NCBI GenBank assembly: GCA_016647705.1
Contig: CM028340.1
Span: 14,089,001 to 14,153,000 of the forward strand
DNA length: 64,000 bases
Direction: 5' to 3'
Origin: Eucommia ulmoides
Lineage: Eukaryota > Streptophyta > Magnoliopsida > Garryales > Eucommiaceae
This document shows positions 1,951-5,900 of the stretch, one piece after another (the stretch's first letter is position 1; each line of letters begins with the position of its first letter). The notes under the pieces are model-generated. The model was not told the DNA's origin and did not search any database. It was given only the letters and a program-made list of their open reading frames with translations. Both the position numbers and the translations under genes were made by a program.

Positions 1951-3463
1951 TCATCATAATGGAAACACAACCTAGTTAACTAGAGATCCCAAGATCTAGG
2001 TTAAGAGGGAATCTACGACTATTCTATGATATAACAGTGATATCTGCAATATAGTTAAGAATAAGTATAACTTTTAATAATTTCTATATCTTGAAAATTT
2101 CAAGTGGGGTATCGCAAAATACTCTTTATAGAATATCACCTATATGAGTAAGAACAAGGCCGATTTCTGAGAGAATGAAAAGGCTAAATTCTCTAGAAGC
2201 ACTCATGAAGTACCAGGGTGTTCAGGGCCAAAATGAATGCAACCATAGAATAGAAAGTGTCTAGAAGATAACTATGTAGTTTTTATTGTCTTGATTTACA
2301 CAAAATGTCAAACAGTTCAAGATATCATGTTCACTAATTGGTTGAGTAAATCTGAGGGATTCTTACTAAGGAAGGTTCAAAGCCAAAAGTTATCTGTCTT
2401 CACGTGCTTATTTTCTTTTTGAGCTCCCTCTCTCTCTCGTTTTGATTCTGTATTTCATATATATGTTTATCCGATCAATTTTCATTCATGTGGAGGACTG
2501 TTGTATTAAATGATTTTTTTGGGTATTTTGTAACCCAATTATTTATGAGATCCAATAAGAATTTGAGATATATAGATATACTAATGTGTTCCCCTTGGTG
2601 AGAAGATAAATGTAATATATTTATTTATGAAAAATCATTTAAAAGGTGAATTAAAATTGTTGATTAAAGTACCCAATTGAAGATATTGATTGACGTGTGG
2701 TGTGGATTATCCCACATCGATAACCTAAGAAGATGAAAAGTCATTTATTAAGGTTCGAGATACTTCTTGTAGGTAAGTCCTCTAAGGCATTAAAAGATAT
2801 GGATAGAAAAAAGGTTAAAGGTTATAAAATAAATAAAGTGTCACGACCCGTCCCGGAACCCATCATCCCGAGGCTGGCGTGACTACAATATGACATCACC
2901 AATAACCAATCAACCAAATGAAAGACAATTTTTTCCCATCATATAATACAAACATTTAAATGGGGAACACACCCATCCCAATCTAATATTCCTAACAAAC
3001 AATATTCATCTATGAACCTTTTAACGGTTCGTCTTGATTAGTTTCTCTCAAACACCTCTACGACTTCATTACGCAGCTTTACCTAGTGCCAGTAGGGGAC
3101 CGACTCCTAGCCGTTGTACCTGCGAGTGTACTGCCTTCTTAGTAAAACATTTTTTAAAATATTAATACGTTCCAAATATTTCCACAATTTAGTATGGATC
3201 AAACACAGGTATTTAAACAATGGAAATAGGCGCTATAGATAAGTTCTAGCCAGATTCATCTTAGTATAACATCATACCAATCATCATAATAAATAATATC
3301 AAATAAATCAATATACGTAACACACCACATCTCAAGCACCAATCTCAAACACCCACCTCCAACACACACACACTGGCCAGTCCTAGTGATCGTTTTAACC
3401 TCACGATCAGGAGTTTACAACGGTACCGTACCATCCGTAGGATATGCCTTCCTACGAACACCC

Positions 3464-3600
3464 ATCACTCCGCCGAAGCGGATAATCACTGCGCAGTATA
3501 AACGTCTAACATCGCTCTGCCAAAGCAGATAAACATCACTCCGCCGTAGCGGATAACATCACTCCGCCGAAGCGGATAATCTCACTCTACCGAACTAGAT
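3464..3600. repeat. Tandem hairpin array in the solo LTR
   Basis: About five units of 20-30 bp, typified by ATCACTCCGCCGAAGCGGAT, each form a short inverted repeat (TCCGC-CGAA-GCGGA). Variant units keep pairing: TCTGC-CAAA-GCAGA, the palindrome ACTGCGCAGT, and TCTA...TAGA. Paired changes in both arms are seen directly in the sequence. Confidence 0.8.
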
Positions 3601-4380
3601 AAATACTAGGACATCGTCAAATCAAATACAGCATCATCGCATCACAACTCAACAAATATCGTCAAATCACCACGTCTATCTCTTTTCCTCAAACCCAACT
3701 TTTAAGCCCAAAAACATATTTCACACTTTTCTTTTTAGAGAAAAACGTCTGATTCTTTCAAAACTACTTTTCCACCCTTTATTTTTTCTTTTGAAAACTA
3801 GACATTTTTAGGAAAACATATGTTTTCTATTTCCTTTTAAAAACACTGTCTAATTTCACCAAATTCACCAAAAATTCATTTTCAGTTTCATTTTGGAAAC
3901 CATCGAAATTTTCCAAAAACTCAGTTTACCAACTTACCCAAATCCTGCTTGATCCATATCATTTATAAATTCATATAATTTAGGTAATCACAATTTTCAT
4001 CCCATATTTATATAGAGAATAATTTGGTAAGAAGACAGTACACTCACCTCGATCCCCGTTTTGCACCACTGACATTGTCCGCCCTCTATCTGGACGCCAG
4101 TGCCTGCGAACCTAATAGTGGCAGAGTCTAAATTAATATCTTATCTAAAATATCCTAATCATGTAATGCAAACCCTATTTCCCGAATCGTTACTAATTTT
4201 ACATACCACGTACTTAAAATTAATTAATCGTTACGACATTATTATGGTTTTAGGATTTCTAATACTAATTAAAATTTAATTTAATGGAAATTAAATCATC
4301 GATCGAAGCTTCACCTGTTTCCGAACCGTTTGGCGACCATGAGATAAGTTTTGGATTCTTCTGGGGTGGTTTCTGCAATT

Positions 4381-4480
4381 TCCCCTTTTTCTTTTTCTTT
4401 TTTCTTTTTTTTTTTTTCCTTTTCTTTTCTTTCTTCTTTTTTTTTTTTTCTTTTCTTTTCTTCTTCTTCGTTTTCTGCTT
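4381..4480. repeat. Polypyrimidine tract of about 95 bp
   Basis: An almost pure T/C run inside the gypsy solo LTR. Apparent long reading frames across it on either strand are low-complexity artefacts. Such tracts can form triplex DNA in principle; nothing here shows that it does. Confidence 0.8.
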
Positions 4481-5570
4481 CCGGTCCGATCCTCCCTCAG
4501 CCGCCGACAAGGAACTCCGACCACGTCTCCCGTCGTCACCATTCCGAACGCACAACCATATCACAACGATCCACCACCTCCACCCACACAGCCGACCAAC
4601 CACCCGGAGCCGATCACCCATCGTTGGACAGCTCACACCGCCAGACCGGAGTCCTTTCTCTCTCTACCTACTCCGGCGACTTACCTACAACCGAAACCAC
4701 CCACACCTACTTCCATAACAGTAGAACACACCTACACCTCCTTATTCCATTTTCAGAAACCACACACCCTACCCACCTGTTCCATTTTCAGAAAACACAC
4801 GGCCGGTCACCGTCGACGACTCACGTACCGCAGCAACGGCCACGCTGAACAGAGCACAAACCAACACACCCACCATCTTCCGGAGGAGCACGGAAGCCCC
4901 CCCCATGCACGTCCAACAGCCTCGCCGGCGATCGCTTCTCAAAACCGAACTCCGGCCGGCTCTCTCTCTCTCTCTCTCTTCTCTATTTTTTTCCTCAGAT
5001 TCCCTTTTTCTTTCTTCTCGATCCTTCTGAAATGAGTGAATCGCTTATATACGCATGAGTGTAGTGGTTGCGTTTGATTCTGGCTCGCCACGTCGAAGCC
5101 TCTGTCCGAATTCCTGCTGGCCCTCCCTCCGACCGAACGTTGGTGGGTATATGATGATAAAAAAAAATATTCATTAATTGCTCTTTCCTCCCCCCAATTT
5201 CCTTTAAACCCTGATTTTACTCCTTTTCAATTTTAAAAGTTTCTAACATTTTCAATTCCACCCCTGAAAGTTTAATTTAAATGTTACATGTCAATTTACT
5301 TCCCTAAATTGGGATTTACTATTTCTATATTTTCAATTTGACCACAAACTTTTTATTTGAATTTTTAATGGTCCTAGTTTCATCCCGAATTTTCACCATT
5401 ACTTTACCACACCACTGAAATGACGTATCTTCTACGATGGCGGTCTTACATAAAGTTACACGTGCGCGCGCGTTGCGGCCGCTGCCAACCGGCCAGGTCA
5501 AACGCAGGCTCAAGTCTAGGTTCTGGACCTGGGCCTTGGGCCTCTTGGAGAATGCTTGATTTTTGCTCTC

Positions 5571-5580
5571 TATAAAAGGG
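5571..5580 (+). promoter_or_regulatory. TATA-like box in copia 3' LTR
   Basis: TATAAAAGGG lies in the second half of the copia LTR, where the family's promoter would sit. A related element has CCATAAATAGGAGG near 58098. Whether it is still used is unknown. Confidence 0.5.
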
Positions 5581-5900
5581 CACATATTCTCAACATTAGG
5601 CATCCATGAGCTGCATTGCATTCTTCTTTTCTGTCTTCGTTGTTCTTGTTTTGAGAGAGTTCTACATTTCTCTTGTTCGTTCGGCTTTTGGTTTCTAGTG
5701 CTAATACCAGTAGTAGTCTGATCGTTGTATCCTGAGAGACAAACACTCATTCAACCGTAAACATTTAGCGGAGACGAAATCTACTTTAAAGACAAATCTC
5801 CAAATGATTGTCTCAATCTTCTATTTTGGTATTTTCGTTTCTGTTTCTTGTTACTACACAATAACTATTATGCTTCTATCTGCTTTATCATTTTACAACA

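Follow-up and report, generated by a model that had tools for sequence, protein, structure and literature searches.

The closest described systems include the psi/DIS leaders of retroviruses, which resemble the locus reported here in their tandem short hairpins, their self-complementary palindrome and their donor-like and acceptor-like flanks. The present locus differs from them in lying inside a plant long terminal repeat (LTR), in the regular 23/24-nt spacing of its hairpin array and in its UNCG loops, and a psi-like role is proposed here by analogy. To our knowledge, the means by which RNA of plant LTR retrotransposons is marked for packaging have been little worked out. The combination of an abundant family with a regular, conserved and easily probed array between splice-site-like ends would make such marking directly testable. 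Among plant elements, the barley Ty1/copia element BARE1 has spliced and packaged RNA pools and produces a spliced subgenomic RNA (PMC3735527). Its separate RNA pools make it a useful comparison among plant LTR elements, but it belongs to another superfamily, and the passages of that paper considered here mention neither a hairpin array nor an intron in the LTR. Retrozymes are found in plants as well, and their structured RNA lies in LTR-like repeats. They carry hammerhead ribozymes (PMC4918200), whereas an Rfam search of positions 2700-5600 of our sequence yielded no match of any kind up to an E-value of 1. The words 'stem-loop', 'hairpin' and 'dimer' are absent from the main text of a 2025 review of plant elements (PMC12786077), and, going by titles and the beginnings of abstracts, none of the literature matches listed describes an array of this type.

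The array is located in a solo LTR of Eucommia ulmoides, within the 64,000-nt stretch of DNA that was analysed as a whole (the window). Our preferred reading, which we hold tentatively and at somewhat short of an even chance, is that the array belongs to a structured RNA domain, conserved in the transcribed region of the LTR in a probable Ty3/gypsy family of high copy number, where it would serve as a packaging or dimerisation site. The coordinates of all features are summarized in Table 1.

Table 1. Features of the solo LTR, the folded domain and the hairpin array (positions in the window; a slash in splice-like motifs marks the intron-like border)
Feature	Position	Strand	Remarks
Target site duplication, left copy	2834..2838		TAAAG
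Solo LTR	2839..5450	-	2612 bp; ends TGTAAGACCG...GGGTCGTGACA; full-length relatives have two LTRs
Intron-like folded domain	3120..4047	-	AG/GTGAGT ... CGCAG/GT, 928 nt; contains the array
Domain-closing stem, 3' arm	3124..3141	-	
Nested inner stem, 3' arm	3193..3205	-	13 nt
Terminal hairpin	3433..3459	-	GUUCGUAGGA-AGGCAUA-UCCUACGGAU; 10 pairs including two G.U
Last hairpin unit	3469..3482	-	TCCGC-UUCG-GCGGA
10-nt palindrome	3488..3497		ACTGCGCAGT; ACTGC/GCAGT without loop
Hairpin unit	3516..3529	-	TCTGC-UUUG-GCAGA; UUCG in many other copies
Hairpin unit	3540..3553	-	TCCGC-UACG-GCGGA
Hairpin unit	3563..3576	-	TCCGC-UUCG-GCGGA
First unit on the sense strand, imperfect	3586..3599	-	TCTA GTTCGG TAGA
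Nested inner stem, 5' arm	3946..3958	-	13 nt
Domain-closing stem, 5' arm	4028..4045	-	18 pairs, one U.G
Candidate TATA box	5045..5051	-	TATATAA; upstream of the folded domain
Target site duplication, right copy	5451..5455		TAAAG

The assignment as a solo LTR is based on the terminal TG...CA, the 5-bp target site duplication and the paired LTRs of relatives. Long direct repeats were present in all seven relative loci, which had been picked because they contain two array matches 6-7.6 kb apart. In L045 and L046 both repeats are complete, the locus containing both ends of each (about 2.6 kb each, flanking a 3.5-kb interior); in the other five they are cut off or partial. The interior measures 4.4 kb in L043 and about 5.2 kb in L047, the latter with an internal duplication: a 1466-bp segment of this full-length copy is tandemly duplicated with 99.7% identity (L047:3060-5986). 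In L009, L045 and L046, the minus-strand motif TGGTATC(A/G)GAGCC, which resembles a tRNA-iMet primer-binding site, adjoins the LTR end equivalent to position 2839, and a purine-rich GGAAGAGT adjoins the opposite LTR in relatives, giving these both a primer-binding site-like motif and a polypurine tract. Because the former is on the minus strand beside that LTR end, the minus strand is the sense strand of the element. TATATAA on this strand agrees with the TATA-box consensus and is a candidate for such a box. With LTRs of about 2.6 kb, 3.5-kb interiors and longest listed interior open reading frames of 109 aa (L009) and 114 aa (L045), the relatives L009, L045 and L046 resemble the large non-autonomous (LARD-type) LTR elements of plants. 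L043 differs from that type in keeping a gypsy-type pol fragment, a Tf2-1-like SH3 domain that adjoins the 3' LTR (PF24626, E 9e-19). Since this domain was found without a reverse transcriptase in the five L043 pieces searched, assignment of the family to Ty3/gypsy is likely but incomplete.

A preliminary description of the locus had reported tandem hairpin units inside the LTR, and these are real: units are arranged in tandem at 3463-3600, a 20-base unit pattern allowing up to three mismatches matches three times in the window versus 0.00 expected (100 shuffles), and the repeat family D1 comprises four 25-nt copies at spacings of 47, 24 and 23. The arm sequences TCCGC/GCGGA, TCTGC/GCAGA, ACTGC/GCAGT and TCTA/TAGA are also as first read. 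The accompanying claim that each unit is a 5-bp stem with a 4-base loop applies to four units only; ACTGC/GCAGT is loopless, and the TCTA/TAGA arms bracket 6 nt whose would-be closing pair in sense RNA is G.G. On the sense strand, the unit sequence is TTA-TCCGC-UUCG-GCGGA-GTGATG, the loop being UACG or UUUG elsewhere in the array. UUCG, UACG and UUUG are UNCG-type tetraloops, a loop class of unusual stability, with C-G closure, and UUUG and UUCA are CpG decay products of this type. UCCG (two) and UGCG (one) are rare among 123 units that were collected by a finder requiring some pairing and a UUCG-like loop, which biases the loop and pairing frequencies. Position 2 of the loop is thus free (UUCG, UACG, UCCG and UGCG), as in C(UNCG)G tetraloops, on a strand that would be the transcribed one. 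Exact matches to CACTNNNCCGNAGNNNATAA in the 947-Mb genome number 8868 (4562+4306), a count of units rather than elements, and the same pattern read backwards matches twice. Three to six units were recognized per array in a sample from chromosome 1. Near position 1476 of L053, on the minus strand, there is a chimeric unit, TCTAT-TTCG-GCGGA, which joins the left arm of the first unit type to the right arm of another as if the two had recombined within the loop.

Copies of the array belong to two clades, A and B. The best 40 matches of the array share a 179-nt stretch that aligned without indels. In the 26 more distant of these, segments of the array are 91-98% identical to the window and other LTR segments fall to 61%; in this same, nearer set the array is not unique, because parts of 3619-3960, and much of 3719-3960, equal it in conservation. 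In 15 loci obtained from pattern matches, identity to the window in 20-base segments is 93-98% across the array and the terminal hairpin (3419-3578), 83% in the first unit and 98% in the block around the 3' stem arm, with other LTR segments down to 54-75%. The conservation of the units is biased upwards because the copies were found by similarity to the array; the terminal hairpin and stem arms lie outside the unit search pattern and are less affected.

The terminal hairpin adjoins the array, follows it on the sense strand and is longer than the array units. Its core, with up to five mismatches in 20, was found in all 65 clade A loci, and in clade B it is exact in three of the four loci when compared with that clade's own form; 38 distinct versions of the hairpin were collected. 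Just past it lies a 10-bp palindrome, ACGGTACCGT (3420-3429), which many copies, some clade B ones among them, retain in full or almost so.

Conservation of the hairpins does not extend to an excess of compensated changes. The preliminary description had argued that the paired differences between units are hard to explain by drift alone and had suggested a covariation test of aligned copies against shuffles. In the near copies (39 distinct rows from the best 40 matches), 97.8% of the cells for 31 pairs are paired, yet none of the 31 pairs changed on both sides, and shuffled pairing values in these rows are as high as the real ones. Genome-wide, the alternative compensated form TCCAC/GTGGA, which single changes can reach just as easily, was observed 56 times versus about 82 expected by independent change (95% 32-157), the expectation being derived from 301 matches for one single change and from the frequencies in the first 100 of 8868 rows. 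Thus, neither the near rows nor this genome-wide count contains an excess of double-sided, pair-keeping changes, and we rejected compensation as proof of selection. A further candidate for a compensated unit, TTGAC/GTCAA in L083, was discarded, as it lies in unrelated sequence. TCTGC/GCAGA is far above independence (about 2217 versus 16, estimated from the first 100 of 8868 rows). It occupies mostly one place in clade A arrays and most units in clade B, and this placement in both clades marks CTG/CAG versus CCG/CGG as a paired state that arose in one or a few events and was inherited by orthologous or duplicated units. Transitions at the CpG in the middle of each arm account for the differences between CCG/CGG, CTG/CAG and CTA/TAG; if CTG/CAG is ancestral, however, the change to CCG/CGG would not be CpG decay. 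ACTGC/GCAGT contains a T-A to A-T exchange relative to the other units, but its loop has been lost. In clade B (78 units, a few of them misregistered), there is an excess of Watson-Crick pairing over shuffles for pair 3 only (P 0.019), the values for pairs 1-5 being 0.14, 0.06, 0.02, 0.74 and 0.13. The argument against drift is therefore not established, given the CpG transitions, the inherited state and the counts above.

Independent arm changes that break pairing, which the preliminary description had named as evidence against selected pairing, are indeed seen in individual copies. They do not exclude selection while the elements were active, because dead copies are expected to show them. 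That the hairpins have been kept by constraint is supported on other grounds, namely conservation in diverged LTRs, the UNCG loops of the sense strand and the strongly folded domain described below, with the limit that in the nearer copies conservation covers a wider block that includes the array. Arm symmetry could also be restored without selection, by template switching inside the hairpins as they are replicated; this is reachable in principle via reverse transcription as well and is compatible with the perfect arms of most of the common units. We regard it as highly improbable, since uncorrected single-arm changes persist in individual copies and the conserved long-range stems are left unexplained. 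Tandem duplication and common descent, in which one unit arose and was duplicated, two types were inherited and conservation reflects recent expansion and homogenization, accounts for several features: unit number varies (three to six in the chromosome-1 sample, seven in two clade B loci), TCTGC/GCAGA is at the same place in most arrays, the chimeric unit of L053 points to recombination between units, and compensated changes are not in excess. As the array, the terminal hairpin and the stem arms exceed most neighbouring LTR sequence of the same copies in conservation, age alone is insufficient, and we consider descent without constraint distinctly unlikely as the explanation.

The domain in which the array is embedded is closed by a long-range stem, both arms of which are kept, 577-948 nt apart, in 49 of 51 distinct rows (the exceptions are L007 and L060). 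Conservation begins sharply at AG/GTGAGT, where the 5' arm starts: positions +3 to +6 are invariant and upstream positions -8 to -2 are 44-89% conserved in 54 clade A rows, which had to match the core at six or fewer mismatches and of which one or two, L060 for example, may be in the wrong orientation. At its end the 3' arm reads CGCAG/GT. GT...AG borders in sense orientation are thus found in the 54 clade A rows and, in clade B, at the donor in two and at the acceptor in three of four loci. Features of this kind characterize a spliceosomal intron whose ends pair with each other, and we call the domain intron-like, splicing being a prediction.

In clade B, the 5' arms of both the closing and the inner stem are present in all four fetched loci. 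The donor is an intact GT(A/G)AGT in two of them (GTAAGT in L126, and L127) and is damaged in L128 and L129, whereas the acceptor differs, reading TTTGGTTTCAG/G in three of the four. L126 and L128 retain the 13-pair stem core, which has decayed in L127 and was not found in L129; this survey used single rows, and the pair tables were left out because some rows (such as L011, L031, L040, L053 and L075) are wrong-strand.

These borders could also delimit an intron in the LTR leader that is retained or regulated. Its paired ends would then govern splicing, and the array would only make the intron compact or bind a regulator of splicing, without any role in packaging. The occurrence of AG/GTRAGT and CAG/G in both clades despite the differing acceptor region (with the clade B donor GT intact in two of four loci), together with the pairing of the intron ends, agrees with this explanation, which we nevertheless consider unlikely: all 10 candidate junction matches are mutated unspliced copies, and none is spliced, in a search whose junction pattern reached only families with a first exon that would end in AAG or GAG. 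The same 0/10 fits packaging of unspliced RNA only, and equally fits no splicing at all.

The domain is strongly folded on either strand. The 933-nt sense domain has a folding energy of -262.5 kcal/mol and a z-score of -6.66, versus -8.47 for the antisense domain and -0.10 for a control stretch of equal length from the same LTR (20 shuffles each). For the 221-nt array, the antisense strand forms clean, separate hairpins (z -3.05; 0/200 shuffles as good), and the sense fold is unremarkable, with units partly pairing with each other (z -1.68; 14/200 shuffles as good). In three pairs of single units, the sense version folds slightly better than the antisense one, the difference being 0.9 to 1.8 kcal/mol. 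Single-arm changes lean towards wobble pairs on the antisense strand, 15 to 7 (P 0.13). The U.G of the closing stem and the two G.U of the terminal hairpin would be mismatches on the opposite strand. The evidence on the strand is therefore mixed: the UNCG loops, the splice-like ends and the G.U pairs favour a sense RNA, whereas the fold z-scores and the wobble lean favour the antisense strand.

The strength of the antisense fold is one of the points in favour of an explanation at the DNA level, in which a dimeric plant protein would bind the units as palindromic sites, the array would serve the LTR as a regulatory module and folding would be a by-product. Each unit is an inverted repeat whose arms are 4 bp apart, the units recur at a regular 23/24-bp spacing, and ACTGCGCAGT and ACGGTACCGT provide further palindromes. 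Such sites, however, leave unexplained the UNCG loop sequence, the longer-loop subfamily (L117-L119), the long-range stems with U.G pairs of the sense strand and the intron-like borders, and both the candidate TATA box and the donor-like site are upstream of the array. We rate this explanation as unlikely to much the same degree as a splicing role alone.

The folded RNA domain that we prefer has its observed basis in the UNCG-type loops of the sense strand, the conserved array and terminal hairpin, the two nested long-range stems and the intron-like ends. According to the proposed mechanism, the minus strand of the LTR would be transcribed and the unspliced RNA would fold into the large domain, in which the array and the 10-nt palindrome could be the site of recognition or dimerisation when Gag packages the RNA. 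With a donor-like end on one side and an acceptor-like end on the other, this site would be present in unspliced RNA alone, as psi is in retroviruses, and a fraction of the RNA would stay unspliced through the pairing of these ends. We infer that the domain, kept while the elements were active, functioned in packaging/dimerisation or in controlled splicing; the row of hairpins may help the element RNA to fold, to splice or to be packed. A more specific form of the proposal, that a retrovirus-like packaging/dimerisation signal (the UNCG array plus palindrome) is confined to an LTR-leader intron with pairing ends, so that the splicing state decides between translation and encapsidation, is rather unlikely.

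Two variants of the domain were observed in individual loci. L007 and the clade B loci L126-L128 have a different downstream sequence, with an acceptor-like TTTCAG/G instead of CTCGCAG/G, and homology therefore changes near the presumed splice acceptor. In the clade B loci L117, L118 and L119 (C3:41134990, C13:19450720 and C2:48628430), most units have a 13-nt loop between TCTGC/GCAGA-like arms. This longer loop replaces UUCG, as in TTGGCATAGTCCG, and the change has spread over several units per array.
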